Part shown: in pieces, positions 16,548 to 44,052 of the stretch
How positions within the stretch are numbered: position 1 is the stretch's first letter
Layout: every line of letters starts with the position of its first letter
NCBI GenBank assembly: GCA_029252555.1
Contig: JAQXBF010000008.1
Span: 1 to 64,000, forward strand
DNA from: Porticoccaceae bacterium
Lineage (GTDB): Bacteria > Pseudomonadota > Gammaproteobacteria > Pseudomonadales > Porticoccaceae
Direction of reading: 5' to 3'
DNA length: 64,000 bases
Made by a program: the position numbers and the translations under genes
Notes under the pieces: model-generated
Told to the model about the DNA's origin: nothing
The model's input: the letters and a program-made list of their open reading frames with translations, nothing else
The model's database searches: none

Positions 16548-16549
16548 TC

Positions 16550-18082: not shown

Positions 18083-18325
18083 ATATGTATTTTGTCATCT
18101 TCAAGCTCTTCTAAGGTCACCCTGAAGTTCTTCCACGGTCATCCTGAGGAGCCGCGACAGCATCTCTGCTGTCGACGGTCACAGCGGTTAGCCAGCAACC
18201 TAAGTATTCAGGATTGGGCACATTTCGTCAGGCTTATAAAAAAAGAAACTGTGTGATGGATGGGTGATTTTTATTTGGGAATAAGCAAAAACTGATGCGA
18301 ATAAAGTTTTAAGGGTGAAGGATTT

Positions 18326-20308: not shown

Positions 20309-20310
20309 AG

Positions 20311-20412
20311 TTTAGAGATTCTTCATATTCGTTCAGGATGACAGATGGGGATGTTCCGGATCACTCCACAATGTAACCCCGACAGAGCGAAGCGACGAGG
20401 TATCTAACAATC
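20311..20412. repeat. Dispersed intergenic repeat copy
   Basis: AGAGATTCTTCATATTCGTTCAGGATGACAG ... GAGCGAAGCGACGAGGTATCT. Confidence 0.55.
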
Positions 20413-20432
20413 CCTTACACAAGAGGCATTAA

Positions 20433-24046: not shown

Positions 24047-24107
24047 TTCGTTCCTCTTACTATTCCTTCTATTCCTTTCTGTTACTGCGGAATAAATTTA
24101 ATGGGCT

Positions 24108-26258
24108 TTAGAATTTACCGTAGTAACCTTCTTTCAAAGCGTCGAAAAGATTGGCCGCTGTGTGGGTCTCTCCGTCGTACTCTACTTCTTCGTTGCCTTT
24201 GAATTCGACTGTTGAGCCGTCTTCTAAGGTGAAGCTGTAGGTGGTATTTTCCAAATCTTTCTCGGTGACCAGCACGCCCTGAAATGCTTCCGGGTTAAAG
24301 CGGAACGTGGTGCAACCTTTTAGGCCTTTCTCAGCGGCATAGAGATAGATATCTTTAAAGTCTTCGTAATCACAATCCGTGGGCACGTTGATTGTTTTGG
24401 AGATAGAAGAATCTACCCACTTCTGCGCTGCTGCCTGAATATCAACGTGGGCTCTGGGCATAATGTTCTCGGAGCTCATAAAGTAGTCGGGCAGGGCCTC
24501 CTCTTCACTGGTGCCGTAGGGCATCGCATTTTCATTAACCAAGGTGCGGTAGGCCAGCAGCTCATAGGAGAATACATCGACTTTCTCTTTTGACTTCTTG
24601 CCTTCGCGAATCACATTGCGCGAGTAGTGGTGAGCAAAACTTGGCTCGATACCATTACTTACGTTATTGGCCAGAGACAGTGAAATGGTGCCTGTGGGTG
24701 CAATGGAAGAGTGGTGGCTAAAGCGACAGCCTTCTTCGATCAGTGACTCAACTAGCTCTGGTGCTACAGACGCAACGTTTTGCATATAGCGGCTGTACTT
24801 GGCCATCAATACTTTGCCTTTGAGCTTGTCGCCTACTTTGATGCCATCTTTGACCATCTCTGGCTGCTTGAATAGCATAGCGGCAGTGACATCAAACTCG
24901 TCATCCATAATGGGTGCGGGGCCTTTCTCGCGGGACAGGTGCAGGCCAGCTTTGAGGCCAGACACTGCCATATCGCGGGCAACGCGCTCGGTGAACTCTA
25001 GTGAATTTTGCTCGCCATACTTCATGCGCAGCATGGTGATGGTGGAACCCAGACCCAGGAAACCCATGCCGTGGCGCCGCTTGTATTCGATCTCTTTGCG
25101 CTGGCCATCCAGAGGCAGGCCATTGATCTCTACAACGTTGTCTAGCATGCGAGTAAATATTTCAACCACTTCGGCGTACTCGTCCCAGTCGAAGTAAGCA
25201 TCTTTGGTGAACGGGTTGCGTACAAATTTGGTCAGATTAACCGAGCCCAACAGGCAGCTGCCGTAGGGGGGCAGAGGCTGCTCACCACAGGGGTTGGTGG
25301 CGCGGATATCTTCGCAGAACCAATTATTGTTATTCTTATTGACCTGATCGATCAGAATAAAACCGGGCTCTGCATAGTCGTAGGTGGACGACATAATGGC
25401 GTTCCACAGCTTCTGAGCGCGAATGGTTTCGTAGATACGGCAGGCTACCAGACCTTCTTCATTGCTGGTGTAGCCGTCGGTGGTTGGGAATGGCTTCCAC
25501 ACCACATCGTCGCCTTTCAGGTCCAGACCGCCTTCGACCTCTTTGCTGCTGATAGGGAAGGTCAGGTCCCAGTCGCCATCGGCACGCACAGCTTCAATAA
25601 ATTCTTCGGTGATCAGTAGCGACAGGTTGAACTGACGCAGACGACCATCTTCACGCTTGGCGCGAACAAAATCAAAAACATCTGGGTGGCTCACATCAAA
25701 GGTTGCCATCTGCGCGCCACGACGGCCACCGGCTGAAGACACGGTGAAACACATCTTGTCGTAGATATCCATAAAGGACAGCGGCCCAGAGGTGTAAGCA
25801 CCCGCGCCAGAGACGTAGGCTCCTTTGGGGCGCAATGTAGAGAATTCGTAACCAATACCGCAGCCAGCCTTGAGCGTAAGGCCAGCTTCGAGGTTGCGTT
25901 CCAGAATGCCCTGCATGGAATCGGGCACTACGCCAGAAACAGTACAGTTAATAGTAGAGGTGGCTGGCTTGTAGGCCTGGGCACCGGCGTTGGAGATAAT
26001 ACGTCCAGCGGGGATTGCGCCATGCTTGAGTGCCCAGACAAATTTCTCTTGCCACTCTTTGCGTTTTTCTTTGCTTTCAACATCGGAGAGGGCCTTTGCC
26101 ACGCGCATATAAGTGGCGTTGATATCTTTATCAACAGGCTGTTCCTGCTTGTCTTTTAAGCGGTATTTTTTGTCCCAAATATCCAGGGACGCGTCTTGCA
26201 TTTTAATTTCTTGTTTCGCTGCAGTAGGTTTTACCGTCTTTAGTCTGGTTGCGCTCAT
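24108..26258 (-). CDS. nrdJa: Adenosylcobalamin-dependent ribonucleotide reductase, catalytic subunit
   Basis: ATSTINCTVSGVVPDSMQGI, NPCGEQPLPPYGSCLLGSVNLTKFV, SIAPTGTISL. Confidence 0.95.
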   Translation of the reverse strand: MSATRLKTVKPTAAKQEIKMQDASLDIWDKKYRLKDKQEQPVDKDINATYMRVAKALSDVESKEKRKEWQEKFVWALKHGAIPAGRIISNAGAQAYKPATSTINCTVSGVVPDSMQGILERNLEAGLTLKAGCGIGYEFSTLRPKGAYVSGAGAYTSGPLSFMDIYDKMCFTVSSAGGRRGAQMATFDVSHPDVFDFVRAKREDGRLRQFNLSLLITEEFIEAVRADGDWDLTFPISSKEVEGGLDLKGDDVVWKPFPTTDGYTSNEEGLVACRIYETIRAQKLWNAIMSSTYDYAEPGFILIDQVNKNNNNWFCEDIRATNPCGEQPLPPYGSCLLGSVNLTKFVRNPFTKDAYFDWDEYAEVVEIFTRMLDNVVEINGLPLDGQRKEIEYKRRHGMGFLGLGSTITMLRMKYGEQNSLEFTERVARDMAVSGLKAGLHLSREKGPAPIMDDEFDVTAAMLFKQPEMVKDGIKVGDKLKGKVLMAKYSRYMQNVASVAPELVESLIEEGCRFSHHSSIAPTGTISLSLANNVSNGIEPSFAHHYSRNVIREGKKSKEKVDVFSYELLAYRTLVNENAMPYGTSEEEALPDYFMSSENIMPRAHVDIQAAAQKWVDSSISKTINVPTDCDYEDFKDIYLYAAEKGLKGCTTFRFNPEAFQGVLVTEKDLENTTYSFTLEDGSTVEFKGNEEVEYDGETHTAANLFDALKEGYYGKF

Positions 26259-29041: not shown

Positions 29042-29788
29042 TCAATGCGCTTCTGCAACACTGAAACGCCAATCATTGATCACCTGAGATCGCACAGTCT
29101 TTAAATCCGGGATGTCTCCCAATACTGCATCCTCAATGCAAACCAAATGAACCCCATAATTGGATGCGATAGGATTTGTCCAGATGGGCAGGCTCTGTTG
29201 ATTATTTAAGACTTCTGACAGCAGTTTACTGGCAAAACCATCGCCAAATTCTCGGTCAACTCTGTCCCCCAGCGCATTGTTATACTGCGCCCTTAGATCG
29301 CTGCTATCTCCGGCTGGCAATGTCCCCTGTTTGATTTCTTCCTGAGCTTGCTGCGCTTTTAGGTAGGCTTGGCCGCCATGTTTGCTGCGGCTAAACAGTA
29401 TTTGGCGAAAGCTGAACTTGGATATTTCGCGATAGCTTGACTGGTTCTTCTGGTAATACTCAATCAGCTCTTGGTCTGTGGGTTGGCGCAGGGTGGTAAC
29501 ATTTTTGGTCAGGCCTGCGAGCTTGGCTTCCATGGCTTCAATATCAATGGGCTGGTCTAGATCTGGCCCCATTCCCTCTGTGGGCGGTGCTTCTTCACCG
29601 AATAAATCGAGCTCTATACGCTGTTCGAGCTGGGCTATATCAGGTAAATTTTGTCGGTTGGCATCCCAGTCTTTTTGGCTGTCTGGACCCTCTGCTGATA
29701 ACCATAAATAAGCAACCAGCAAACCAATGACAAGCATCGCAGCTGGCAATAGGCGCTTAACTAAGGGTTGTGGGGAGGGCGTTGTCAT
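29042..29788 (-). CDS. Membrane-anchored PpiC-type peptidylprolyl isomerase
   Basis: N-terminal TM; EISKFSFRQILFSRSKHGGQAYLKAQQAQEEIKQG...LPIWTNPIASNYGVHLVCIED parvulin-like pattern. Confidence 0.75.
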   Translation of the reverse strand: MTTPSPQPLVKRLLPAAMLVIGLLVAYLWLSAEGPDSQKDWDANRQNLPDIAQLEQRIELDLFGEEAPPTEGMGPDLDQPIDIEAMEAKLAGLTKNVTTLRQPTDQELIEYYQKNQSSYREISKFSFRQILFSRSKHGGQAYLKAQQAQEEIKQGTLPAGDSSDLRAQYNNALGDRVDREFGDGFASKLLSEVLNNQQSLPIWTNPIASNYGVHLVCIEDAVLGDIPDLKTVRSQVINDWRFSVAEAH

Positions 29789-29806
29789 GGGTGGAGTTTG
29801 ATCATC

Positions 29807-31225
29807 CTAGCGCTTAAAAATTTTGATCCATTGTCCAGCGACAGGCTCACCGCTGGGGTAGTAACCATTGATTATACGCAGGTCTTCAATATCCGTGGTA
29901 CTCAACTTTAAGGCTTTGGCCAGGCCTGCAAAAGTGGTTGCGCCTGTGGCTTTTACATAATGAATTGTCTGTGGCTTTTGACCCTGTATCTCGCGGCTGG
30001 AAATGGGGCGGAAGGTGTTGATAGAGTCGAGAAATACTTTATCTGTCTCGGCAAAACTGGACTGGTCTTTTACTTCGCCGCTAAAAAGATACGCATTGAG
30101 CTTGTAGTAGATTACGGCAATTCTGCTATCTGGTTTGCCGTCTTTTCCCGGCAATATGCCGGTAAAGCCTTTTAGGCGAGCTGGTGCTATAGTTTTACTG
30201 TCTATGAGTTGTGAAACTTTGAGGTAGTTATAGAGATATTCTTCAGGGCTCTGGGCTGTGCGGGCAATGGGCTGCATCATTAATATTGCGGTTTTATCTT
30301 CTGGCGATGCGCTAACCAGGGCCTGTGGATTATTGGTATCCTGCTCCCAGCCCTCCGGGAAATCGAGGCGCACTCGGCGAGTCATATCGGAGAAGCGTTC
30401 TGGTTTCTGTTCTTTGGCTAGAAAGTTTTCACCCCAGATGAGACCATTGGTCAGGCTCCGATATCTAGCTGCACCATTGTCTCTACTGACCTCTGCTTTG
30501 AAGGCATTAGCTTTGCTAACTACGGTGCGCAGTCGACTATCGTTCCGTGGGTGGCTGGCGAAAATACCATGATAGGTTAGCTTGGAGGCACCTCTGGACC
30601 TTGCCCGCTGTTTTTGCAGTGACTCGTAGTCTTTCATAATCGACAGCATGCTGATCATTTCGCTGGGGGCATAACCCAGCTTGGCCATATATTCGGCGCC
30701 CGCTTCATCTGCCTCCAGTTCATTGCGTCGACCATGCCCTTTAATCAGTGAGTTGGCGTAGGCCATGCCCGCTTCATAGACTTCATTACTGCCGGATAAC
30801 ACGGCGGCTATGGTGGACAGAATTTGAGCGCCCGCCGCCTGTCCTTCTTGTCCGCGAACATGGTTGCGGGTGATATGACCAACTTCATGGGCCAGTACCG
30901 AAACAAGCTGCGCTTCATTACTCACGTAATTCAGTAGGCCGCGGTTAACGTAGACATAGTTATCTCTGGTGGCGAAGGCATTTAGATCTGGTGAATCGAG
31001 CAGGGTGAAGGTGAATTTTTGTCCGACCATTTCCGACTGGGTGACCACCTCTTCGCCGAGCCTGACTATATAGGCCTGAAGTTTTTCGTCTTCGTAGATA
31101 TCTGTGCTTTCGGTAACCTCTTGATAAATATCTGCACCGCTAACAGCAGTCCAACCAGTTGCTGGCAGCAGCCCAAACAGGGCTGCTAGAACAAAGGTTG
31201 GTATTAGTTTAGTGGCTGTTAGCAT
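29807..31225 (-). CDS. M48 family metalloprotease (BepA-like) with C-terminal LysM-like segment
   Basis: Signal peptide; VSVLAHEVGHITRNHV zinc motif; C-term TTFAGLAKALKLSTTDIEDLRIINGYYPSGEPVAGQWIKIFKR. Confidence 0.9.
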   Translation of the reverse strand: MLTATKLIPTFVLAALFGLLPATGWTAVSGADIYQEVTESTDIYEDEKLQAYIVRLGEEVVTQSEMVGQKFTFTLLDSPDLNAFATRDNYVYVNRGLLNYVSNEAQLVSVLAHEVGHITRNHVRGQEGQAAGAQILSTIAAVLSGSNEVYEAGMAYANSLIKGHGRRNELEADEAGAEYMAKLGYAPSEMISMLSIMKDYESLQKQRARSRGASKLTYHGIFASHPRNDSRLRTVVSKANAFKAEVSRDNGAARYRSLTNGLIWGENFLAKEQKPERFSDMTRRVRLDFPEGWEQDTNNPQALVSASPEDKTAILMMQPIARTAQSPEEYLYNYLKVSQLIDSKTIAPARLKGFTGILPGKDGKPDSRIAVIYYKLNAYLFSGEVKDQSSFAETDKVFLDSINTFRPISSREIQGQKPQTIHYVKATGATTFAGLAKALKLSTTDIEDLRIINGYYPSGEPVAGQWIKIFKR

Positions 31226-31239
31226 ATTGTTTCTCTGCG

Positions 31240-31926
31240 TTAGGGTGCTGAGAAAAATGATTTAAGTTGATTGCCTAAACTGGTGCAAGCATTACTCTTG
31301 ACTGGCGTTAGCAGCGGTATAGGAGCAACGGCACCAATCAGGTATGAAGTGCCCTCTGAGTCTACTCGCAGACGGCCCATTTCCTGAAGATTGGTCATAT
31401 CCCACACAATAGCCTCGTAAACCGAGAGCTTGTCCCACTGAGCAAATCCGAAGCAACCTCCGCCGCCCGGACCAATAGCGCAGCTGATAGAGCCCCCTTG
31501 ATCTAGAGTCTCTGTGGAGCCATCTATCCACACCAAATACCGCACTGCTTTGCTATCGACCTGGCCTTTGATTAGTGGGTCTTGCATAAGTCGTTTGAGT
31601 CGCGGCAGGCCTTTGGGCGCTGTGCGTGGTTCGAACCAAGGGTAGATTGAGTCGATAAACTGTTGCTCGGGCACTATCCCTATATCGGCTCCCTGCATGC
31701 GTTTGGCAACACAATTAATAAATTCCCGATCAGTTTCATAATGGCCCGCATCTCGCCGACCCAACACCACGATCTTTTCATTGGTGTTGAGATCTATGGC
31801 TTCTCCAGTGGGGCGATATTCATCAATGGTGGTGGTGGCACTACAGCCGGCTAAACTGCCAACTATAAGGCCGAGTAAAAGGCCCTTTAAGGTATATTTA
31901 GAGCCCAGTTTGATTGTCGGTTTCAT
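31240..31926 (-). CDS. Putative lipoprotein of unknown function
   Basis: LLLGLIVGSLAGCSATTT lipobox; ATG 31926 overlaps the upstream stop (ATGA). Confidence 0.6.
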   Translation of the reverse strand: MKPTIKLGSKYTLKGLLLGLIVGSLAGCSATTTIDEYRPTGEAIDLNTNEKIVVLGRRDAGHYETDREFINCVAKRMQGADIGIVPEQQFIDSIYPWFEPRTAPKGLPRLKRLMQDPLIKGQVDSKAVRYLVWIDGSTETLDQGGSISCAIGPGGGGCFGFAQWDKLSVYEAIVWDMTNLQEMGRLRVDSEGTSYLIGAVAPIPLLTPVKSNACTSLGNQLKSFFSAP

Positions 31927-32552
31927 TTTGATTCCTCCAATATTTTCTGTTCCATCATCCAACCATAGATGGCGGGGATTCTATAGAAGTCGAGCATTAG
32001 TTTTGCGCCAGCATCGCGCAGGGCAATAATAGAGGCTTCTTCTATGGCATTAGATTTAGAGGCCATGAAGGCATCTGGAGTTTTGCCGTAGGCAGGCATA
32101 AACCAGCTATCGATTGTCTCGCCACTGGAGGTTTGTATCTCTAGGTTGTATTTGATCCAGACTTCAAACACATTGAGGTAGTTGTCGGAGGGAGTGGATA
32201 TCTGTACCTCCCGAACCGAGGGGATAATAACCAGTGAATTAGCTCCACTAATTTCTTCTGTGCTAGTGACAAATTCGACTTCGTTAAATAGGCCAGTAAA
32301 AGCATTGCTAAGAAGCTTCACTTGAGCCGTACCTATATCGATCACGGTATTTTTATTGGGCTCGGCTATGTAGGTTGAGAAGCTCTTATCAAAAACAATG
32401 CTGGCGGAGACTGGCTGGGGTTCAGCTAGTACCGTCGGGAAATCATTGTTGATCTGTACAGAGGCTGAGGAGCTGCAACCACTGAGTATTGCCAGTAACA
32501 AGATTGCAGCTGATAACCTTATCACGGTTTTATCTAATTTAGTTTTAAGCAT
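31923..32552 (-). CDS. Putative lipoprotein of unknown function
   Basis: LSAAILLLAILSGCSSSASV lipobox. Confidence 0.65.
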   Translation of the reverse strand: MLKTKLDKTVIRLSAAILLLAILSGCSSSASVQINNDFPTVLAEPQPVSASIVFDKSFSTYIAEPNKNTVIDIGTAQVKLLSNAFTGLFNEVEFVTSTEEISGANSLVIIPSVREVQISTPSDNYLNVFEVWIKYNLEIQTSSGETIDSWFMPAYGKTPDAFMASKSNAIEEASIIALRDAGAKLMLDFYRIPAIYGWMMEQKILEESK

Positions 32553-32565
32553 ATGTTTATACCCT

Positions 32566-33555
32566 TTAATTAAGGCTGTTTAAGCCGATAAAGGTTCCTC
32601 CATTGTTATAACTCAGTTCGCGCATTAGGGCGGCAAATTTTATAGCCGATGCGCTGGGGGTGCCCCCCGGGGGGAAATGCACCGGGAAACCGATGGCATG
32701 AACGCGAACCAGCCTGTCACTGCCGCGGTTTGCCTTGTTGAGTTTGTCTACTACCTGTACGACTCGGCGAATGGAACGACCCTGAAAGTCATCTCCCAAT
32801 GTATAAATACTGATTTTGCGTCCAGGCCGATAAAAGGTACGGATGGCCGCATTAATACCTTCGACCGGGCTGGAATTACTAAAGGGTGCCCAGTCCGCTA
32901 AGCGGTTGATGATATTTTTTCTCGTCTTCGGGCTATCTGCTATCCAGCGGCCTTTTTCGCCGGAGAACATATACTGACCCATATCGTTAAGCACCTGAAT
33001 GCCCTTGACCTCTGGGTAGATATCAAGAATATTCAGCATCTCTTTTTTCACTTTTTCCCAGGCCGCTACCTGCATGCTGCCGGAGGTGTCGATCACAAAA
33101 ATAATATAGTCGCTGTCTGCTGGTATGCCACCGATAAGCTGGTTTTGTTGTTGGAACTCTGGCCCCAGCAGCCTTTCCATCTCTTCGGATAATACCTGCA
33201 GCACTAATTGCAGCTGTTCTTTTTCCCGAGACTGAGACTGGGACAGCTGGTTGGACTGCTTTGACACACTGGCGAGTTTAGCTTTGAGCCGGGCGATTCT
33301 CTCTTTTAAGTCGGAGAGCTGCTCTTTGCGCGACTTTAGGCGTTCGTCGAGAATCACAGATTCCCCGCGAATATCGAATAGACGCTCCTGATACTCTTTA
33401 ACGGAACCCATTAACTGACGCTCTGCCTCTTCAAGAGCTGAGGGATCGCCCACTTTGGCGATGACCAGCAACAGCACTATGGCACCAAACCCACAGCTAA
33501 TAACATCCAGAAAGGACAGGCTGGCTTCTGGTAATTCTCTGCGCTGTTTCTTCAT
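32566..33555 (-). CDS. TM-anchored von Willebrand factor A domain protein
   Basis: LSFLDVISCGFGAIVLLLVIA N-terminal TM, coiled coil, MIDAS FVIDTSGSM; start revised to ATG 33555. Confidence 0.85.
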   Translation of the reverse strand: MKKQRRELPEASLSFLDVISCGFGAIVLLLVIAKVGDPSALEEAERQLMGSVKEYQERLFDIRGESVILDERLKSRKEQLSDLKERIARLKAKLASVSKQSNQLSQSQSREKEQLQLVLQVLSEEMERLLGPEFQQQNQLIGGIPADSDYIIFVIDTSGSMQVAAWEKVKKEMLNILDIYPEVKGIQVLNDMGQYMFSGEKGRWIADSPKTRKNIINRLADWAPFSNSSPVEGINAAIRTFYRPGRKISIYTLGDDFQGRSIRRVVQVVDKLNKANRGSDRLVRVHAIGFPVHFPPGGTPSASAIKFAALMRELSYNNGGTFIGLNSLN

Positions 33556-34607
33556 GGCCAGTCCCTCGAAGGAGCGATAAACGCGCCCTTGGTATTCAGA
33601 GCGATCTGCCAAAACAGCGCGGCGGCCTCTGGGTCACCTTCCATCGGAAACAGAATTGTATTAATGGGTACGCCGCTGGGAAACTCTTTCATCGCGGCAT
33701 TAAAATGCTTGCGCCGCTGCTGGCCAGTGACCATATATTTTCGCGGTGGTTTCTTACCTTGAGTCGGCAAACCATCGGTTAATAGGAATAAATTATCGGG
33801 CCGATCTTCAAAGTCTGCGATGGCACCAAAGGCATTGATTAGGCTGGTGCCTGAGCTCGGTGAGTAGTCTTTGATTCCCGCTACGGCATTTTCCAGTGCC
33901 AGAGAGTCTGCGGCATCTAGCCATTCGCCCTCTGTGCCAGGCACAGTAGTATGAGCTTCGGTGTTAAAAATATAGACTTGGAAGCGGCTGCTCGGGGGCA
34001 GCTGCGCTAGCAGCCATTCCAACGTGCGCAATGTCCACTGCCATTTCGGTGACTGCTTCTTTTGTTCATCGCCCATATTGCGCCGACGCACGGCATTCAC
34101 CACGGTGTCGGCAAGCATGCTTGCGGAGCCATCTACCAGTATCAGCACTCGCTCGCCTCCGAGCTTTAAGCCGGTGAGATATTGGCGATTTCCGTCGCCC
34201 TGAAACTCTCGTACCTTATCGCCAAACTCAACTTCTTCCATTTGCGCTGTCTCATCTCCGAGCTGCTCTACTTGGCGGCGCAGCTTGTCGAGATCGTTTG
34301 GATCGTTCTGAATACTTCTTTCTTGCTCTTCTAAGTCGGTGATAACCCGTTTTGATAGCCCCTGGGCTTCAACTAATTCGAGTTTGATCTCCTCCAGGCT
34401 ATTAAGCAGTTGGACTTTCTCTTCTTCTGCATCGCGGATATCCATCTGCAACATATCCACTTCGGCGGAGATGCGGATGTCTGGTGTCACCACTTCGGTG
34501 GCATTGTGCCGCAGGATTAAAAACAGCAACGTCACCGCGCCAAAGCCACAGGCCATAATATCCAGAAAGGATAAGCTGAAGGCAATATTGCGGCGCTTTC
34601 TAGGCAT
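33552..34607 (-). CDS. TM-anchored von Willebrand factor A domain protein (paralogue)
   Basis: LSFLDIMACGFGAVTLLFLIL N-terminal TM, coiled coil, MIDAS LILVDGSASM, LFLLTDGLPTQG. Confidence 0.88.
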   Translation of the reverse strand: MPRKRRNIAFSLSFLDIMACGFGAVTLLFLILRHNATEVVTPDIRISAEVDMLQMDIRDAEEEKVQLLNSLEEIKLELVEAQGLSKRVITDLEEQERSIQNDPNDLDKLRRQVEQLGDETAQMEEVEFGDKVREFQGDGNRQYLTGLKLGGERVLILVDGSASMLADTVVNAVRRRNMGDEQKKQSPKWQWTLRTLEWLLAQLPPSSRFQVYIFNTEAHTTVPGTEGEWLDAADSLALENAVAGIKDYSPSSGTSLINAFGAIADFEDRPDNLFLLTDGLPTQGKKPPRKYMVTGQQRRKHFNAAMKEFPSGVPINTILFPMEGDPEAAALFWQIALNTKGAFIAPSRDWP

Positions 34608-35862
34608 TGCTTACCTCTATAAGGCGCAGTTTATGGCCGGCCACCTGAAGCGTTTTTCCCGGCTGGCAGGCACTGGGTAACTGCACCTCTAAGCCATCTT
34701 CCTGATGCAGTATTTTGAATTGCCGATTTTCAACCACCGTGACAAATGCGGCGCGATTATCAATGGTACTCACCAAACTAAGCTGTTTGTCTTTGAGGTG
34801 GATGCTTAGTGGGTGATCCAGTGGATAGGCATGATTTTGATAAAGTACATGGGTAGCCTGATGGGCTTTCTTGGTAGCCTGGGTTTTTGCCTGAGTTGCG
34901 ATATCCAGTTCGCGGATGCGATGCAGTTCTTCGCTAGCGAGCTTTTCCTGAACACTAAAGCAGTTTTCAATGCCTGCATTTTGAGCCCAGAGTTCAGCGT
35001 CGGCAAATTGAGGCAATAGTGCTGGAATTAAACTGGCGCTATGGGAAAAACAGAGTTTCGCACTGCTGTGTTTTTTGATGATGGCATTAAGGCCATTGAG
35101 GCGCTGATGCAAAATCTCGGCAATCTGCTGTTTGCGCAACACCAGATTCAACTCTCCTTGGGGTGAGGGCAGGGTAACCGATATTTCGTCTTCCCAACCC
35201 AGCCGCATCAGCCAATGGGGCAGCTGGTCGTAGATCAACTGTTCACCATTGGACATATGCAGAGGGTCGTAGCGATAGTCGGCAATAAGCTGCTCGCTAA
35301 TATGTCGGGCGGCGGCGTTATACAGCTGCATGATTCCTAGGTCAGGAATAATCTCTTGATCTGCAATCTGTTGACGACCCTCGGCATTGGATACTCTGGT
35401 TATAACGGCTTGCTGAAGTTGGAGCTCGACTACTAAATTGGTAGTTTCTTGGCCTACACAGCAGGCCAGTGCGCTATCAATAACGGCGCTGATCTGCACG
35501 GGCACGGCGCTGGCAAGGCCCAGTAATAATGAAAGCTGCTCATCGGAAAAACTGCCGGGAACGCTAAGGATCAGGTTTTCTGGTGCCCCAGCATTATCGA
35601 CCAGCTGCTTGAGTTGGACAAAGGCGATATCTGCATGGTGTCTCGCCCAGCGCTGCTTGCTCGGAAGCGCCAGCTGATTAAATTGTCGCCAGTACTGGTT
35701 ATAACTGTGCTGAGGCTGCTGCCAGGCAATGGCTCGTGCGCGTTCACCAGTTTCTATACCGCTGGCTGTCAGCTGGGCAAAGCCGGGCTCGGCATGCACT
35801 GTGCCGTCCTCTGTCTGAATAATCAGATGTTGGTCATTAAGCTCTAATACAGCAACAGTCAT
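34600..35862 (-). CDS. Putative degenerate Hsp70/actin-like ATPase-fold protein
   Basis: VPGSFSDEQLSLLLGLASAVPVQISAVIDSALAC resembles the Hsp70 VPAYF...NEPTAAAL region; no clear phosphate-1 DLGTT motif. Confidence 0.45.
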   Translation of the reverse strand: MTVAVLELNDQHLIIQTEDGTVHAEPGFAQLTASGIETGERARAIAWQQPQHSYNQYWRQFNQLALPSKQRWARHHADIAFVQLKQLVDNAGAPENLILSVPGSFSDEQLSLLLGLASAVPVQISAVIDSALACCVGQETTNLVVELQLQQAVITRVSNAEGRQQIADQEIIPDLGIMQLYNAAARHISEQLIADYRYDPLHMSNGEQLIYDQLPHWLMRLGWEDEISVTLPSPQGELNLVLRKQQIAEILHQRLNGLNAIIKKHSSAKLCFSHSASLIPALLPQFADAELWAQNAGIENCFSVQEKLASEELHRIRELDIATQAKTQATKKAHQATHVLYQNHAYPLDHPLSIHLKDKQLSLVSTIDNRAAFVTVVENRQFKILHQEDGLEVQLPSACQPGKTLQVAGHKLRLIEVSNA

Positions 35863-35864
35863 GA

Positions 35865-36674
35865 TTATTTAGGCGCTTTTAAGAAACGCAGTAATTTGTT
35901 TTCACAGTACGCCTGTGAATCTAGCACCAGCCGCTCCTGAATAAGCTGTAGCTGGTGCATAAAGAACATCACGACCATGCTGATGAGCAGGGCGATAAAA
36001 GTCGAGTTAAAGGCGACGCCCAGACTACTGGTGACGCCGGCAATATTACCTTGCATGGCTTCGTGGGCTTGGCCCAGTGCAGCACCAATGCCGCGAACGG
36101 TGCCGATAAAGCCGATGGAGGGGATGGCCCAGGTGATATAGCGCACCATCGATAATTCTGAGTCGAGGCGATCATTCTCTGTGTCACAGACATTGGATAC
36201 GGCTTCGGTGGCAAATTGCACGCTGTCAGTAACCTGAAATCTGGTCAGCGCCGTTTGCAAGGCTCGGGGCAGCAGATAGCCTCGTTGCTCATCAGGCAGC
36301 GCTTGTAGTGGGCGAGTTAGTTGACCGGCATCATCTGGCAGCACACGCGAGCCCTCGGCAATAGACACCAGGGGTAGCTCGAGCATATGTTTCTCGCGAA
36401 TGCTGGTGCGCGTTTTATAGCCCATAATGGCGAGAGCCCAGAACATCAGAATAAAACAGGACTCCTGCTCGATATCTTTGATAACGATAAAAAATGATCG
36501 CGGCACTACATATTCTTCACCGGCTGCTGCCATTTCTGCATGCTGACGGATCGTGCTGTCGGCATTGGGTCGCACCACAGTAACAAAGATGGTGTGGATG
36601 ATAATCACCGATAGCAGCAGAGCCACTAGCTGGAAAAACATCTCGTTGGTTGCGCGATTGGCTGGGCTGTTCAT
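35865..36674 (-). CDS. MotA/TolQ/ExbB proton-channel family protein
   Basis: YITWAIPSIGFIGTVRGIGAALGQAHEAMQGNIAGVTSSLGVAFNSTFIALLISMVVMFFMHQLQLIQERLV. Confidence 0.88.
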   Translation of the reverse strand: MNSPANRATNEMFFQLVALLLSVIIIHTIFVTVVRPNADSTIRQHAEMAAAGEEYVVPRSFFIVIKDIEQESCFILMFWALAIMGYKTRTSIREKHMLELPLVSIAEGSRVLPDDAGQLTRPLQALPDEQRGYLLPRALQTALTRFQVTDSVQFATEAVSNVCDTENDRLDSELSMVRYITWAIPSIGFIGTVRGIGAALGQAHEAMQGNIAGVTSSLGVAFNSTFIALLISMVVMFFMHQLQLIQERLVLDSQAYCENKLLRFLKAPK

Positions 36675-36748
36675 AGTTTTATTCCTGTGTCTAAAATCGT
36701 TTTTATAACAAGGCTTCTATTTAAAACGGCACGTTTATAAAGAGTTAT

Positions 36749-36985
36749 TCAAATATCTGAGGGGAGCGGGACTGGAAAATCCTCAGATATCTCTTCAGTG
36801 GGCTTAAAGTCACTGTCTTCTGGTGGGGCGCTTTGTTCTGCTGTTTCTTCTGGTGCGCCCGCTAGTGTTTCTAACGGGCGTTCTTCAGCGCCAGCAGTTT
36901 CAATATTTTGCCCTCTATCCGATTCGGCTTGCTGCCCCATCACCATGGTTGGCAATACCAGTAGCAGTATTATTAAAAATCTCAT
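36749..36985 (-). CDS. Small exported acidic protein
   Basis: 78 aa, signal peptide MRFLIILLLVLPTMVMGQQA; start overlaps the stop of the upstream PEGA/SUMF1 gene (ATGA). Confidence 0.5.
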   Translation of the reverse strand: MRFLIILLLVLPTMVMGQQAESDRGQNIETAGAEERPLETLAGAPEETAEQSAPPEDSDFKPTEEISEDFPVPLPSDI

Positions 36986-39051
36986 GGCTTGGCTCCAGGC
37001 CTGTCCACATAGCGGGCGATTCTAAAGCCTACATCCAGGCGGCCCTCAGTGCCAGCGTCCCGATAGCTTAAGCGCAGTTCGGTGCGCGAACCCAGCGCCC
37101 AGCTGGCACCGCGTATTACATGGCGATTACCACTGGTGGGCCCAGTGGGATCAATCTCTGGCTCACCTCGATTGGGGCGTATATCGTAGTAGTCGTTGAC
37201 CCATTCGGAGACATTGCCGCTCATATTGTAGAGGCCATTACTATTAGGCTTGAAGCTACCAATATCTGAGGAGACAGGGTAGTTATCATTGTAGTTGGCA
37301 ATGGTGAAGCTGAGGAAGTTTGATGCGCTTTGGTCAGCGTAGTTATCCTGCACCTGCATTGGTGGGTAAAGATTACTGGCCCAAGGGAACACCTTCCCAT
37401 TGCCATTTTTATCGATTCTTGCGGCCCAAGCCCATTCTGCCTCAGTGGGCAAGCGGTAGCCGTGGGAGTTCCAATTAAAGCTGCTTACCGCACCGTCGGC
37501 TATTTCATAGAAAGGGGGTAGGCCCTCTTTACGACTCAGCCAGTTGCAGTAGAGTGCGGCCTGTTCCCAAGAAACTTTGGCCACGGGCTGACTATTCATA
37601 TCCAGTGACTGGGCCTTGATGGCAGAGGAACTGTGTTCTTGCCAGCGACGGAACTCAGTATTGCTAATTTCTTTACGCCCCAGATAAAACGGTCTTTGCA
37701 GGCCCACTTTGCGTTCAGCTTCATTAGCGCGGCGACCGGGCTGGCGGCGGGGAGCACCCATAGTGAATGTTTGATTGGGTTTGAATAGCTTGAGCTCTGT
37801 GCCCACAAAGCTTTTGATACGAGGCGGGCGAGAGGTCCAGTAGGCTTCTTCTACTGTCAGTAGCTTGATACTCAGTGCTTGCTGATGGCCGGGCCTTGGG
37901 GTGACGGTCAGAGATTTCGACTCGTAGCCTGCTTTTTTAATGGTCAGCGTATGGGGTTTTGCATTGAGGGATAATGTTCGACTGCCGGTTCCCTTAGGTT
38001 GGTTGTCCACCAGTATCTGCGCATCGCTGGGGCTAATGGTCAGGGCAATGCTGCCAATATTCGGTTTAAGATTTACATTCACCGCCTTGGTAGCTTCTGG
38101 CTCGAGGCTGGCTGATCTGGTTGCCTTTAGATAGCCTTCAAGAAACAGCTCAATGCGATATTTTTTAAATGGTGCCATGGGCAGATCAATTGGGGTGGTA
38201 CCAAGAAACTGATTGTCAACGGTTATCTTGGCACCGGCAGGTGCACTACTGATCTGTAATATTCCATCAGAAACAATCAGTGCTATAGGTGGATGGGTGG
38301 CACTGGTGCCAGCCTTTACATTGACCCGCTTTTCAAAGGACTTGTAGCCTTTTAGTTGCAGCCGTAAGTTGCTGCCAGTTTCCAAAACCTCTGTGACCAA
38401 CGGCGTCTGACCTATCAGGCGATCGTCGATATAGAGATTGGCACCCGAGGGCTCAGTGTTAAATTGCATTTCTCCCCAGGCAGGCAGCATTGAAACATTT
38501 ATCGACTGGGTGGTGCCCAGCCCGGCAATATCGATTTCTTGCTGCAGGGGAAAGTAGCGATACTTGGTGAATTCTATCTGGTGGGAACCACGGCTAATGC
38601 CTTTAATGGTGCCTGGCACCTCAGCTGCGGGTTCACCATCAATGCTGGCCGCTATTGCGGTTATATCTGAGCCAACTATAAGGTTGCCTGGCAGTGGCTG
38701 CAGCTCTAGTTTTAGATCCTGGGTGGCTTGCCCGCTAACAGTGATTGTTTGCACAAGGGGGTAGTAGCCTTCGGCACTGGCTTCGATACTGTACTCGCCG
38801 CTGAGCAGCAGGTAGTTATCACCGATATTAAAGGATAAACCACTGATATCGATCTCAGCATTTTGTGGCTCTGTCTGAAATATCACAGCGCGGGCAACAA
38901 ACAGATACAGCATAATAATGACGGCACTGGTGGCCAGAACCGCCAGTGCTAATACCCCGGGAGATACCGGCAAGCGGCTCTCGGTGCTTGCTGCATCTAG
39001 GGGTTTAAATTGTGTCGCTGATAGTGGCTGCTTATTATTTTTATCGGGCAT
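36982..39051 (-). CDS. PEGA-repeat protein with C-terminal SUMF1/FGE-fold domain
   Basis: N-terminal TM; repeats such as GEMQFNTEPSGANLYIDDRLIGQTPL and GILQISSAPAGAKITVDNQFLGTTPI; SUMF1 GYRLPTEAEWAWAAR...GLYNMSGNVSEWVNDYY...HVIRGASW...VGFRIAR. Confidence 0.88.
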   Translation of the reverse strand: MPDKNNKQPLSATQFKPLDAASTESRLPVSPGVLALAVLATSAVIIMLYLFVARAVIFQTEPQNAEIDISGLSFNIGDNYLLLSGEYSIEASAEGYYPLVQTITVSGQATQDLKLELQPLPGNLIVGSDITAIAASIDGEPAAEVPGTIKGISRGSHQIEFTKYRYFPLQQEIDIAGLGTTQSINVSMLPAWGEMQFNTEPSGANLYIDDRLIGQTPLVTEVLETGSNLRLQLKGYKSFEKRVNVKAGTSATHPPIALIVSDGILQISSAPAGAKITVDNQFLGTTPIDLPMAPFKKYRIELFLEGYLKATRSASLEPEATKAVNVNLKPNIGSIALTISPSDAQILVDNQPKGTGSRTLSLNAKPHTLTIKKAGYESKSLTVTPRPGHQQALSIKLLTVEEAYWTSRPPRIKSFVGTELKLFKPNQTFTMGAPRRQPGRRANEAERKVGLQRPFYLGRKEISNTEFRRWQEHSSSAIKAQSLDMNSQPVAKVSWEQAALYCNWLSRKEGLPPFYEIADGAVSSFNWNSHGYRLPTEAEWAWAARIDKNGNGKVFPWASNLYPPMQVQDNYADQSASNFLSFTIANYNDNYPVSSDIGSFKPNSNGLYNMSGNVSEWVNDYYDIRPNRGEPEIDPTGPTSGNRHVIRGASWALGSRTELRLSYRDAGTEGRLDVGFRIARYVDRPGAKP

Positions 39052-39230
39052 AGTATCTTTGGTATTTTTTTGTATGTAATTATCGGACTAGTCTGTATTG
39101 CGGCCAAGAGATTGCTTAATTTTGTCATTTATCTCTGCCAGCACCTACTGCGCTAATCTGTTCCCTATTGTGTTCGACTCCGTTTTCTTCCTTTTGTTTA
39201 CATCTAATACCTGCTGCGCGCCAAGTTGGA

Positions 39231-40652
39231 CTAGATTAGCTCATCACAGCTTACTCTTATTGGGGCATCAATGGGTGCACCGGTGATGGTAAATTCGACG
39301 CGGACATCTCTGTAACCCATGCGGGAGCCGGCGACTATGTAACGGCCGGGCTTTAATTTTAGCGATGTCTGCTCAAAGACGCCCAATTTGGCAACACGAA
39401 ATAAGGTTACCTCGGTTAGGCTGTTGGATTGGAGTACCACATCAACCGGTGTTCTTGATTGCTGTAGTACCAGACTAAGGTCGGCGACCTGTTGCTTTAA
39501 AACGGGCCCTGGGCTGGCGATACCGCTGGCATCTTTTAATAGCCGCTGGGCGCTCTGATAATTACTGGCAGCGGATAGTTTTAATGGGTCTGCCAGCACG
39601 CTTTCAAGCTGGTTATTTAATGCTGCGCGCACGCTGACCGGAATGGTTCTTACTTTGGCTTCCGTTAGGGATGGGTCAGTTTGCAATAATTCCTGATAGA
39701 GAATGAGAGCCTGCTGCCACTGTTCATTGCGCTCAAACTCTGCGGCCTGATGCATCTGGTTACTCACGGCCAGCTGAGATCGTTTTGTTTCTACCTGTGA
39801 CAGGGCCTGCGCTGGAGAAGAGTGGTTGTTATTGACCTTGGCTGCGAGATTAAAGGCGGTAGTGGCGGCATCAAACTGATTGCGATCCAATGCCCCAAAG
39901 CCGTCACTCATATGGCCACGAAAACGCTGCTCAGTAATGGCTTGATTGACCGATTTCAAGGCTACTGCGGCTTTTTGGTGTTGGTTATCGATACTGACTG
40001 CCTGCTGAAAATAGGCTTTGGCTGCAGCTAATTCATTGGTTTCAACTCGCTGTTGGCCGTTGTCCAGCGCCGTAATTAGACTCTCTAGTTGCTCTGCGCG
40101 TTGGGAGAGCTGCTGCGATCGGCTATCTTCAGGTGCAATGGCCATGGCAGTAGCTGAGGCCTCATGGGCTAGAACAATATCTGTTATCTGAGCATTTTCG
40201 ATGGCACTGATACCCTCTATCAGTGCGGCTTCGAGGATGGTTTGGCCGGTTTGCTCTAATGCTTGCAACTGGTTTAAGGAGTCTTGGTAGCTGGCTAGAG
40301 CCTCGCGGTAGTCGCCGTAGCCATATTGTTCGTCACCCTGATCAACAAGTGCGATGGCCTGTCGAAACTCAAAGTCTCCCCAGAACTCCACTGTCTGCTC
40401 TTTGAGCTCGTCGCGAACGGCGATAATTTGCGCCAACACTTTTTGAGAGTCCTGACGATATTTGGTTTTCTCTGCGGCGGTGGATGGGCTGACGGCGACC
40501 TTGACCGCCACTGGTTTCTCAGAAGCACTGGGGTCAGCGATCCAGGGGTCGGAGACAAAATTCGGCAATAGTAGTACCACCAGAACCACTAGCAACAATA
40601 AGCCGCCAATAATCAGTCTTTGTTTGCCTTCCTGTTGGCTGGGGCTGGTCAT
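39231..40652 (-). CDS. TM-anchored TPR-like protein with PEGA-like C-terminus
   Basis: TM IIGGLLLLVVLVVLLLP; helical repeats; C-term LKLKPGRYIVAGSRMGYRDVRVEFTI. Confidence 0.6.
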   Translation of the reverse strand: MTSPSQQEGKQRLIIGGLLLLVVLVVLLLPNFVSDPWIADPSASEKPVAVKVAVSPSTAAEKTKYRQDSQKVLAQIIAVRDELKEQTVEFWGDFEFRQAIALVDQGDEQYGYGDYREALASYQDSLNQLQALEQTGQTILEAALIEGISAIENAQITDIVLAHEASATAMAIAPEDSRSQQLSQRAEQLESLITALDNGQQRVETNELAAAKAYFQQAVSIDNQHQKAAVALKSVNQAITEQRFRGHMSDGFGALDRNQFDAATTAFNLAAKVNNNHSSPAQALSQVETKRSQLAVSNQMHQAAEFERNEQWQQALILYQELLQTDPSLTEAKVRTIPVSVRAALNNQLESVLADPLKLSAASNYQSAQRLLKDASGIASPGPVLKQQVADLSLVLQQSRTPVDVVLQSNSLTEVTLFRVAKLGVFEQTSLKLKPGRYIVAGSRMGYRDVRVEFTITGAPIDAPIRVSCDELI

Positions 40653-40654
40653 AA

Positions 40655-41935
40655 TTACAATGTCCCGCGCTCTTGTTTATATATTTTGGACAACAGCTCT
40701 TGCCACTGCTGATACTGGGCCTGCACTGTGCCAGTGAGAGTAACAGTGCGGTCTTCAAGTTCTATGACTTGGGGCGCGATCTCTGCTTCCAGAGATGAAC
40801 CCATTTCAGCCACGGATTCATTGTAGGCTGAGGCTTCCTGTTTCTTTTCTAGACCAGATTTAAGGATAAACCCACCCACAGCAGATGTAGCGGTGCTGGC
40901 ATCGCTGACAATTCTGCTCTCAGCTTGCGACCGACCGTATATGCCCGCCAAAATTGCGCCTATACCAGCGATAATGCGGCGGTTGCCCTGCTTGTCGAGC
41001 TGCCGTGCCTTGACCACTGAGTCGTAGGAGGAGCGGCGAAAATCCTGATAGGCCAGGTGCATCTGCTGAGAGAAGCCATCGTAGTAGTCTTGCATGGTGT
41101 CGACATAGAGGTAGTCGCGCTCGCGAATTTTGCGCACACGCATCAATATGCTGTCGTTCTCCGCAGGCAAGCGATCTATTTTTAAGGTGCCGTCGCGTCT
41201 TTCGCTAACATATTTATCAAATGCCTCTGGTGAGAATGATTTGGCAAAGCGCAATTCGGAGATGGTGCGCAGTTCTATGGCTTGCTCATCACTTAGTTTC
41301 TCGCGATAGGCCAGCAGATCGTTGGCGATGCGGACAAACAGATTTTGGAAAGGATCGCCAAGCCTTTTAAGGCGGCGATCGTAGGCGTATTTGCCAGTGG
41401 TCTGTTTATAGTTCTTAGCGAACCATTTTTTACCGCTGCTATCTTTGACCTGCATATCTAGGTCCATGGTTTCACCGTCGGACTGGAGAATGGTGCCGGT
41501 GATATACAGATCCATAACTACGTTGTCGCTTGGGGTAACACGAATAGCCCCCCAGGCACCGCTTTTCTCCATCACTTTGGCCAGCTGATTGGAGAAGTAG
41601 ATGGCTTCTGCAAAGCGCACCTCGGGAAATACAGTATCTTCTTCATCGGTGAGATAAAGGCCATCATTTAAAGTGGGGATGCCTACATCTAATAACGCAG
41701 CTTCAGAAATTTGCTGGCTGGGCGTACGCAGCACCAGAGCGGTGGAAGAGGTGATCTTGTCAGTGGCAGCTAGGGCGGGCGAGGCGGTTATCGCCAAAAT
41801 AACGCAGCAAGCGAACAGGGTTGCCGCGGTAAGTGGGCGGTGCCCTTTAGCTATGGCCGAGCCTTTGGCTGTGCAGTAGCCTCTATATGAGGCACCCTGA
41901 TATGGTCTGTTAATCCCTGAAGTGGTGGTTTCCAT
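40655..41935 (-). CDS. Exported protein of unknown function
   Basis: 426 aa, hydrophobic LFACCVILAITASPALA signal near N-terminus (true start uncertain), 2-bp gap to next gene. Confidence 0.5.
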   Translation of the reverse strand: METTTSGINRPYQGASYRGYCTAKGSAIAKGHRPLTAATLFACCVILAITASPALAATDKITSSTALVLRTPSQQISEAALLDVGIPTLNDGLYLTDEEDTVFPEVRFAEAIYFSNQLAKVMEKSGAWGAIRVTPSDNVVMDLYITGTILQSDGETMDLDMQVKDSSGKKWFAKNYKQTTGKYAYDRRLKRLGDPFQNLFVRIANDLLAYREKLSDEQAIELRTISELRFAKSFSPEAFDKYVSERRDGTLKIDRLPAENDSILMRVRKIRERDYLYVDTMQDYYDGFSQQMHLAYQDFRRSSYDSVVKARQLDKQGNRRIIAGIGAILAGIYGRSQAESRIVSDASTATSAVGGFILKSGLEKKQEASAYNESVAEMGSSLEAEIAPQVIELEDRTVTLTGTVQAQYQQWQELLSKIYKQERGTL

Positions 41936-41993
41936 AGTTGTTCCCGTTTATCCCTATATTTTAGCTATCCAACCTTTTTATACTGAGTTTAAG

Positions 41994-42785
41994 TTATTGA
42001 TTTTTTATACGTCGATATTCGTCCCATAGTCTTTCGCGCAGCACTGGATCCGTCTCTTTCATTGCGGCATCGCGAATTTGACGCTGAACTATATCATCAC
42101 CTTGGCCATCATCTATATCCTCTGGAATTGGAATAGCCTCGCCCTCTTGCCCTTCAGCGCCAGAGGAGCCGCCAGTTTGCTGGCCTGAGCCTTGGCTGCC
42201 TTCGCCCTCTGCGCCTTCAGCCGCGCTCTCTGATCCACCCTCTGCACCGGACCCTTCGGCGGCACGCTTTTCCAGTTCGGCATTGGCTTCGGCCATGCCT
42301 CCCTCGGTGACCTCTTCAAACAGAGGTTCATCACTGTCCATCTGCACACCGCTGCTGCCAGTGGGGCTGAGAATATCAATTTCATTGGCGCTACTTCCGG
42401 TACCGCCTACGGCATCATCAAAACCATCAAGAGAGTCCTCTAGGGCTTGATCCAAATCTTCAACAGACTCTCCACTGCCGGAACTCCCTGAGGAGCCATT
42501 GGCATCTTGGCCCTGGGCCCCACCGGCCTGCTCCCCGCCAGATTGTTGTCCACCGCCTGGCTGTTGACCTCCAGACTGCTGCCCACCAGAAGCTACGCCG
42601 TCAGATTGCTGGCCGCCACCGCTAGAGCCACCGCTGCTGCCAGAGGAGCCACTGCTCGAGCCCGAGGCACCTGATGAACTAGATGGTGGGCTGTAGGAGG
42701 GCATTTGGCAGGCACTTAACAGCAGTGCGATTACCACAGCTGTCGCTATACCGTAGAACCGATCTTTAAAGTTGGTAGCTATCAT
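41994..42785 (-). CDS. Gly/Ser/Gln-rich low-complexity lipoprotein
   Basis: VIALLLSACQMPS lipobox, then SGSSSGSSGSSGGSSGGGQQSDG...; start revised to ATG 42785. Confidence 0.6.
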   Translation of the reverse strand: MIATNFKDRFYGIATAVVIALLLSACQMPSYSPPSSSSGASGSSSGSSGSSGGSSGGGQQSDGVASGGQQSGGQQPGGGQQSGGEQAGGAQGQDANGSSGSSGSGESVEDLDQALEDSLDGFDDAVGGTGSSANEIDILSPTGSSGVQMDSDEPLFEEVTEGGMAEANAELEKRAAEGSGAEGGSESAAEGAEGEGSQGSGQQTGGSSGAEGQEGEAIPIPEDIDDGQGDDIVQRQIRDAAMKETDPVLRERLWDEYRRIKNQ

Positions 42786-42795
42786 TAAAATCCTT

Positions 42796-44052
42796 TTAGC
42801 TCTGCGGAGCTGGTTTCTCGTAGAAGATAACATGTTCAGCTTGTTCGGCCTGGCCAGCCGCAAGTCGCGGCCTAAAGCGTTGGTTCTTAACCTCTTTACG
42901 CAAGGCTTGCAGCTGCTCTTTTGATAAATCTGCGGAGGGGCCTACAACCGCTATATTCTGCGGCACCCCAAATTCTGACACCATCATGCTTACTTCTAAT
43001 TGCGCATCACTGGGCCCGTCAGCGACATCGGACTGGGAGCTTTTGTCCATTGTGAAACTAATTATTCGCGGCTTGCTGAACAACTCTTCGCGCAGCTGCT
43101 CAGATTGCTCTGTGTCTTCCAAAACATCATAGGCGAGTTGATAGGCCTCTGCCGCAGAGAACCTCTGCCCAAACACCAGATACCAGTCACCCAGTTCTGC
43201 GATAGCTATGGCTTGATCTACCTCTAAACTGCCTTCCTGCTGGACCAGAGACTCTACTACTCTTTCCAACGCCACCTTGCCGCGATGAAAGTGCCTGTGA
43301 GAGGTGCTTGAGGCAGCGCGGCTAGAGCTGCCACCGGTTGAAATGGTCATACCCGGCTGGCTGGGTTCTCCATGCTGCTTTATATGGTTGGCGATAAAGT
43401 ACTGTAGATAACCCAGGCGGCGGTATCGATCTGGTGTCGCTGGGTCATCGAGAGCTACGTCGGCATCAAGGATTAATTGCATGCGCATGGCAATGCGTTC
43501 TGAGATCACCAGATTGTCGTATCCACCATTGGCAGAGCGCTCTTCATAGCTAGTGAGATACCAATCGAGCATCTGATCAAGCACAGGCAACATGCGCACA
43601 TCATTTTCACCATAGGCTTTGGTATTGATGGTATAGAGGTTTTCCAATGCTTTTCGCGATTCTTTCCAGTTGCCTAGATAGCTCTCGGCATCTGCAATCG
43701 ATAGCAGGTAGGGTGCCTGAGATAGGCTGTTGAGACCGTAATTCACACGCTCAATCTGCATGCCTCGCTGAAAAGCTTGCCGGGCATCGGCATAGGATCG
43801 TTTTGAATACAGGGATTTACCCAGGCCCAAATAGAGATCTGAGAGTTCGGTAGAGTAGGCGCTGTACTCTGCTTCGACATTATTGATAGCATCAATATAG
43901 TCTTCGACAGGGTCTGAGACAGGTTGCTGCTCTTCGATGGTTTGGGTATGCACATTACCACTAAACAATGTGACTACTGATAGAATGTAAACCGTAAATA
44001 GACTGTATTTATAGGTTGGGGACATTTTGGCCATAGTTTCTGCGGTGGACAT
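42796..44052 (-). CDS. Exported TPR-like protein with TonB C-terminal-like domain
   Basis: Tetratricopeptide-like repeats; C-term AQLEVSMMVSEFGVPQNIAVVGPSADLSKEQLQALRKEVKNQRFRPRLAAGQAEQAEHVIFYEKP. Confidence 0.6.
   Translation of the reverse strand: MSTAETMAKMSPTYKYSLFTVYILSVVTLFSGNVHTQTIEEQQPVSDPVEDYIDAINNVEAEYSAYSTELSDLYLGLGKSLYSKRSYADARQAFQRGMQIERVNYGLNSLSQAPYLLSIADAESYLGNWKESRKALENLYTINTKAYGENDVRMLPVLDQMLDWYLTSYEERSANGGYDNLVISERIAMRMQLILDADVALDDPATPDRYRRLGYLQYFIANHIKQHGEPSQPGMTISTGGSSSRAASSTSHRHFHRGKVALERVVESLVQQEGSLEVDQAIAIAELGDWYLVFGQRFSAAEAYQLAYDVLEDTEQSEQLREELFSKPRIISFTMDKSSQSDVADGPSDAQLEVSMMVSEFGVPQNIAVVGPSADLSKEQLQALRKEVKNQRFRPRLAAGQAEQAEHVIFYEKPAPQS

Follow-up and report, generated by a model that had tools for sequence, protein, structure and literature searches.

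The window analysed here is a stretch of 64,000 nucleotides from a Porticoccaceae bacterium (GenBank assembly GCA_029252555.1, contig JAQXBF010000008.1, positions 1 to 64,000 of the forward strand), in which fourteen consecutive genes (g01-g14) lie at 29042-44052. This cluster probably codes for a machine that spans the envelope and is powered by the ion gradient across the inner membrane, with two different transmembrane (TM)-anchored VWA proteins, VWA1 (g09) and VWA2 (g10), as the axle in a pentamer of the channel protein g07. A preliminary description of this DNA presented the cluster as the leading candidate for an undescribed system, which is only half right, since a motor core of this kind has already been predicted in silico in a recent paper (Williams-Jones et al., 2025; PMC12204202). 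What is new is the conserved cassette around the motor, consisting of a PEGA-SUMF1 protein (g05), a pseudo-Hsp70 (g08) and an exported protein (g03).

Conservation of the gene set

Strong matches to VWA1 were found in 44 of the 196 genomes of the order that were searched, each with a weaker match to VWA2 adjoining, and a 45th genome gave a marginal match. Gene order is alike in the neighbourhoods of 20 of the 44 positive genomes and in 80 named GTDB loci, and g03-g13 share order and strand at about 100 loci of the order. Co-occurrence was counted with g09 as the reference, at loci where the contig leaves room. At the order level, where up to about 20 loci may be one genome fetched twice, g09 is accompanied by g03 (59/59), g04 (76/76), g05 (82/82), g07 (86/86), g10 (92/92) and g11 (92/92), and also by g06 (84/86), g08 (86/90), g12 (85/87), g13 (77/83) and g14 (21/82); strand agreement with g09 is complete for g03, g04, g05, g07 and g10, and is 91/92 for g11. 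In a class/phylum-level set of 33 further loci, drawn from other orders and from another class and including paralogous copies, g04 (24/24), g05 (26/26), g07 (26/27) and g10 (29/29) are kept, and g06 (13/27), g08 (14/29), g11 (9/28), g12 (7/24), g13 (6/22) and g14 (0/19) are found less often or not at all. The g02 gene lies too far upstream for this counting; in inspected neighbourhoods it precedes g03 in most loci, another class included. The g01 gene is upstream in most order-level loci, and some class-level loci have it on the opposite strand.

Co-occurrence of this extent is far above chance, and the cluster is a genuine unit. The co-occurrence across genomes that the preliminary description proposed as a check is borne out by conserved neighbourhoods within the order, in other orders and in another class. 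From the counts at both levels and, for g02, from the inspected neighbourhoods, g02-g05, g07, g09 and g10 are taken as the core; g06 and g08 are frequent members, and g01 and g11-g14 are lineage-specific add-ons. A conserved core thus remains of the fourteen-gene system originally proposed, from which the M48 protease, the peptidyl-prolyl isomerase (PPIase) and the small lipoproteins are to be removed. The retention of this core across orders and another class favours the proposed motor.

At the family level g07 is present in 93 of 113 genomes, and 13 of the 20 genomes lacking it are 1.9 Mb or smaller. In the class, VWA2 has a frequency of about 8%, with some 26 strong matches in 321, and a phylum search gave matches outside the class in a single family. 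Altogether more than 580 loci, which is a lower bound, are present in species-representative genomes across abundant marine lineages; cultured, non-pathogenic relatives with the cluster include Porticoccus sp. W117 and a Microbulbifer strain. No plasmid copy of the cluster was found, nor any natural MotA-VWA fusion, seeming double matches being cross-matches between VWA1 and VWA2. Within the family the cluster shows no association with flagella or with type IV pili, and it occurs without either. In three genomes a second, divergent core copy (g03-g04-g05-g07-g09-g10) stands beside the main cluster, and in two genomes a TolQ-like gene lies downstream of the cluster, only a few genes away, possibly as part of a yebC-ruvCAB-tolQ stretch.

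The channel protein and its probable VWA partners

The g07 protein matches the MotA_ExbB family with an E-value of 8e-14 (51.9 bits, cut-off 22.9), and by profile TolQ is the closest relative of solved structure (E 0.014), in an alignment that spans the pore helices. Two threonines within the TolQ-aligned pore region, Thr192 and Thr225 in the two inner TM helices, are invariant in 126/126 sequences, which, together with the family membership and the relation to TolQ, argues that g07 is the channel of an ion-driven motor. Asn223 (codon 36006-36008), two residues before Thr225, is likewise invariant (126/126) at a position of a small residue in TolQ, and judging from sequence it may bear on the choice between Na+ and H+. 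Besides g07, four MotA/ExbB-family genes and three ExbD-family genes are present in the genome, among them adjacent channel/partner pairs on two other contigs, read as TolQ-TolR and ExbB-ExbD, respectively. No ExbD, TolR or MotB gene lies near the cluster in this genome, and four further genomes that carry the cluster have no ExbD-family gene beside it; with TolQ/TolR and ExbB/ExbD encoded elsewhere, this points to the VWA proteins as the partners of g07.

VWA1 and VWA2 share a layout of a basic N-terminus, one TM helix, a coiled coil and a VWA domain, a topology compatible with a stator partner. The VWA domains are weak in Pfam, and their metal ion-dependent adhesion site (MIDAS) motif is intact, its residues (DxSxS and a later Asp) being almost invariant in both families. 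At the start of the TM helix, the residue following Phe-Leu is Asp in 134/134 VWA1 and 131/131 VWA2 sequences, even in lineages whose proteins are otherwise largely divergent. This Asp is about 16 residues from the TM end, the same as in TolR/ExbD of the same genome (helices VVPYIDVTLVLLVVFMI and LTPMLDVVFIMLIFFIV for TolR/ExbD, SLSFLDIMACGFGAVTLLFLI and SLSFLDVISCGFGAIVLLLVI for the VWA proteins), and its invariance in both VWA helices within a TolR/ExbD-like layout is an argument for their function as an axle. At five loci of another class the TM helix of VWA2 has lost its CGFG motif (FLDIISSAFAAVVLL) and kept the Asp.

The VWA1 and VWA2 genes are always adjacent, and in a tree of 30 VWA pairs the two proteins are split at 100/100 support with matching inner groupings, and therefore the pair is ancient and co-inherited. 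This pairing of two fully supported clades favours the proposed motor, and two different axle proteins for one channel would suggest a heterodimeric axle. The proposal of the preliminary description that the VWA proteins are the partner of the channel is thus probably correct, on the ground of their stator-partner anatomy, the invariant TM Asp and pore Thr, and the absence of ExbD/TolR/MotB nearby.

Proteins around the proposed motor

The g05 protein has an N-terminal TM helix followed by five PEGA repeats and an FGE-sulfatase (SUMF1) domain (E 3.6e-43 for PEGA and 7.7e-38 for SUMF1). Compared with structures, its SUMF1 part matches FGE (9e-17) more strongly than PorK/GldK (3.6e-14). The catalytic Cys pair of FGE is absent from g05, in which C502 is the sole conserved Cys column, and this residue sits away from the C-terminal catalytic region of FGE. 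In the type IX secretion system (T9SS), the GldLM motor has GldK/PorK as a partner in the periplasm (PMC9389320), and a non-enzymatic SUMF1 domain beside a 5:2-type motor therefore has a precedent; the relation of g05 to these GldLM partners also favours a motor here.

The g08 protein, described earlier as a degenerate Hsp70, is invisible to Pfam, and the assignment is upheld by structure, as its AlphaFold 2 (AF2) model (predicted local distance difference test score, pLDDT, 90) matches DnaK/Hsp70 in Foldseek at about 1e-16. Against Hsp70 chains limited to the nucleotide-binding domain, it gives TM-scores of 0.6-0.74 with a root-mean-square deviation of about 4 Å, so that the fold of this domain is recognised. 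At the phosphate-loop positions, occupied by DxGTT and DxGGGT in Hsp70, g08 has LELND and VVELQLQ, and the motifs that bind the ATP phosphates are missing. Its C-terminal beta domain weakly matches FHA regions (EmbR, EssC, KIF13B; E 0.09-0.66), and the protein is predicted to be cytoplasmic because no signal peptide is seen.

The AF2 model of g03 (pLDDT 77) consists of an N-terminal domain and then long helices. LptE and TolB chains take the top 14 Foldseek ranks (E 0.002-0.18), and the model is suggestive only of a TolB-N/LptE-like N-terminal domain; no sequence match of g03 was found in Pfam or PDB.

Proposed mechanism and alternative explanations

From these features we infer how the machine might be assembled and how it might work. 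A pentamer of g07 would enclose the N-terminal TM helix of each VWA protein, the two forming a heterodimeric axle in a 5:1:1 stoichiometry. Ion passage via Asp16/Asp17 and the Thr192/Thr225 ring would move this axle, whose coiled coils and VWA domains in the periplasm would hand the force to g05, g04 and the exported g02 and g03 near the outer membrane. The g08 protein might act as a cytoplasmic, catalytically dead regulator with an Hsp70 fold. Judged from the analogous Tol, Ton and GldLM systems, the job of the cluster is most likely a force-transduction task at the outer membrane. A more specific reading has about even chances of being right: that the cluster represents a distinct class of trans-envelope machine driven by the proton motive force (PMF), in which the heterodimeric VWA axle (5:1:1) grips a PEGA-SUMF1/TolB-N-like periplasmic assembly under a pseudo-Hsp70 switch, serving an envelope task outside Tol, Ton, flagella, T9SS and Zorya, with its seven-gene core (g02-g05, g07, g09, g10) present in at least two proteobacterial classes.

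The assignment of the VWA proteins as the axle of g07 also gains from an independent AlphaFold 3 (AF3) prediction published for seemingly the same protein family, as compared by description. Two points weigh against it. Identity with the Idiomarina family of that work (PMC12204202) rests on this description. Furthermore, when 32 ExbD N-termini were compared with the VWA proteins and seven control TM/signal sets, hhalign gave 2-5% probability of homology between the VWA and ExbD TM helices, not above that for unrelated TM helices of the cluster, and the N-terminal model of ExbD (PF02472) scored about 0 bits on the VWA helices; the likeness of the VWA helix to that of ExbD/TolR is, at the sequence level, positional only.

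As a special form of the motor described above, a machine for surface motility or secretion, comparable to the gliding/T9SS motors, is unlikely: the PorK/GldK match of the g05 SUMF1 domain and the presence of a 5:2-type motor speak for it, whereas no T9SS gene, adhesin or translocon has been identified in the cluster and the match to FGE is the stronger one. Another explanation, which we consider unlikely, is that the VWA proteins are force transducers binding to the side of the channel as TolA/TonB do, and that the axle of g07 is a TolR/ExbD encoded elsewhere. Such a side-binding type is described as a first vWA family by Williams-Jones et al. (PMC12204202), and the three ExbD-family genes elsewhere in the genome could supply the axle; however, neither an SHLS motif nor His is found in the VWA TM helices, which have the invariant Asp instead, no ExbD-family gene accompanies the cluster in the five genomes inspected, and the VWA proteins are an obligate pair.

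It is likewise unlikely that g07 is a scaffold or a regulated ion channel in an envelope quality-control or lipoprotein-handling complex, for which the M48 and PPIase genes within the cluster and the Hsp70-like g08 would be fitting members. Most class/phylum-level clusters lack M48 (6/22) and PPIase (0/19), and the retention of pore Thr and TM Asp without exception is hard to explain without ion passage. A Zorya-like anti-phage or other biological-conflict system on a MotA-type motor is highly improbable, for, despite a very weak ZorA match of g07 and the occurrence of vWA, Hsp70 and PEGA parts in predicted conflict systems (PMC7159879), PADLOC gives no significant match, genes for a nuclease, helicase, MoxR or STAND protein are lacking, and presence in 93/113 family genomes with fixed gene order and no plasmid copies contrasts with the patchy distribution expected of defence. 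The MoxR-vWA ternary conflict system (PMC7159879) was rejected as a candidate, since MoxR, STAND and GTPase genes are all missing.

Organization and surroundings of the locus

The assembly that holds the window (2.3 Mb, 97% complete, 40 contigs) belongs to the SAR92/Porticoccaceae lineage, its nearest named relatives being HTCC2207/SAR92/Porticoccaceae genomes. All fourteen genes were re-found at the coordinates and on the strand given in the preliminary description (Table 1), whose domain calls agree with Pfam and NCBIfam and whose junctions are all correct: 36985/36982, 33555/33552 and 31926/31923 are 4-bp overlaps, 34607/34600 is an 8-bp overlap, and 35865/35862 and 40655/40652 are 2-bp gaps. 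A wider gap of 179 bp precedes g05. Promoter and terminator scans gave no more sites than shuffled sequence, and the assignment as an operon therefore relies on the junctions and on conservation. The g13 protein scores 97.5 bits against the NCBIfam BepA model, under the cut-off of that model.

Table 1. Features of the cluster, in window coordinates
Feature	Coordinates	Strand	Remarks
g01, exported TPR protein, 418 aa	42796..44052	-	TPR_12 E 7e-8; lineage-specific associate
g02, Gly/Ser/Gln-rich lipoprotein, 289 aa	41994..42863	-	hydrophobic segment with LLLSAC at its end
g03, exported protein, core	40655..41935	-	lipobox LAGC in family consensus
g04, inner-membrane-anchored TPR protein, 473 aa, core	39231..40652	-	TPR_2; TM 13-31
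g05, TM-anchored PEGA x5 + SUMF1-like protein, 689 aa, core	36982..39051	-	Pfam
g06, small exported acidic protein, 78 aa	36749..36985	-	
g07, MotA/TolQ/ExbB-family channel protein, 269 aa	35865..36674	-	PF01618
g07 pore Thr192 codon	36099-36101	-	
g07 pore Thr225 codon	36000-36002	-	
g08, predicted cytoplasmic pseudo-Hsp70, C-terminal beta domain possibly FHA-like, 420 aa	34600..35862	-	
g09 (VWA1), N-in single TM, Asp16, coiled coil, VWA with intact MIDAS	33552..34607	-	
VWA1 TM, residues 14-32, FLDIMACGFGAVTLLFLIL	34512..34568	-	hydropathy; Asp16 codon 34560-34562
g10 (VWA2), N-in single TM, Asp17, coiled coil, VWA domain	32566..33555	-	
VWA2 TM, residues 15-33, FLDVISCGFGAIVLLLVIA	33457..33513	-	hydropathy; Asp17 codon 33505-33507
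g11, lipoprotein, 209 aa, associate	31923..32552	-	lipobox LSGC
g12, lipoprotein, 228 aa, associate	31240..31926	-	lipobox LAGC
g13, exported M48 metallopeptidase related to BepA, associate	29807..31225	-	PF01435 E 2e-32
g14, TM-anchored PpiC-type PPIase, Porticoccaceae-level associate	29042..29788	-	PF13145 (Rotamase_2) E 7e-6, at cut-off

Elsewhere in the window, a TonB-dependent receptor (3390-5723) has long His/Glu-rich repeats (HEGEEHEGEE) and is possibly used for uptake of a metal (zinc). At 10474-12605 a selU-like gene adjoins a selD-like gene, the product of which has Cys (GAGCGCK) at the usual Sec/Cys position, and use of 2-selenouridine is suggested. Genes for methylmalonyl-CoA mutase, propionyl-CoA carboxylase, a MeaB-like protein and a B12-dependent-looking ribonucleotide reductase are located at 14415-21398 and 23366-26258, and together they suggest reliance on cobalamin.

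Comparison with known systems

In the account of Williams-Jones et al. (2025; PMC12204202) on proteobacterial vWA proteins, genes for TM-tethered vWA proteins are found in heterologous pairs beside tolQ-like genes and without tolR/exbD, and AF3 models place their Asp-bearing 'transpore helix' (TPH) in a TolQ-like pentamer with a Thr ring. The present cluster is like these TPH-vWA motors in that a TolQ-like gene adjoins a TM-vWA pair, with no tolR/exbD, a TM Asp without SHLS and a Thr ring. It differs in its neighbours, as neither the section on these motors nor its figure legend names SUMF1, pseudo-Hsp70, g03 or lipoprotein neighbours, and PEGA is not mentioned in PMC12204202. Two further recent publications on motors of this family make no mention of vWA motors (PMC12505986; PMC12905483), and a search that left subscription papers and preprints mostly outside found no paper on a PEGA-SUMF1/vWA cassette and no experimental study. 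The known repertoire of ion-driven 5:2 motors is very small, and each of its members powers a major envelope process. The published prediction ends at the motor, and a fixed set of partners makes it testable what vWA motors drive; the cassette points to proteins to study and to two residues, Asp16/Asp17.

The statement of the preliminary description that the cluster is neither canonical Tol-Pal nor a flagellar stator agrees with the lack of TolA, TolB, Pal and an OmpA-like domain in it. A weak TolB-N/LptE-like fold match of g03 and the motor superfamily are in common with Tol-Pal, whereas Pfam and NCBIfam detect no TolA, TolB propeller or Pal in the cluster, and a separate TolQ-TolR pair exists in the genome. 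Unlike the flagellar stator, it has no MotB with an OmpA-like domain, and it occurs in three genomes without a flagellin match. Zorya differs in that it combines ZorA, ZorB and an effector, and here only a sub-threshold ZorA match of g07 was obtained. With GldLM/PorKLMN the cluster shares a motor hypothetically coupled to a periplasmic protein of SUMF1 fold, although GldL/GldM and other T9SS genes are not in the cluster, and g05 is anchored in the inner membrane and has PEGA repeats, unlike the outer-membrane lipoprotein of that system. Like the 5:2 motors TolQR, ExbBD and MotAB, it combines a PF01618 protein having the pore Thr with a partner having one N-terminal TM helix and an invariant Asp, but its two different proposed axles end in VWA rather than TolR/ExbD or OmpA-like domains, and their TM helix shows no homology by profile comparison. 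One channel protein with two different axles is also employed in the AglRQS gliding motor of Myxococcus (PMC9389320), in which AglQ/S are MotB-like, whereas the proposed axles here carry VWA.

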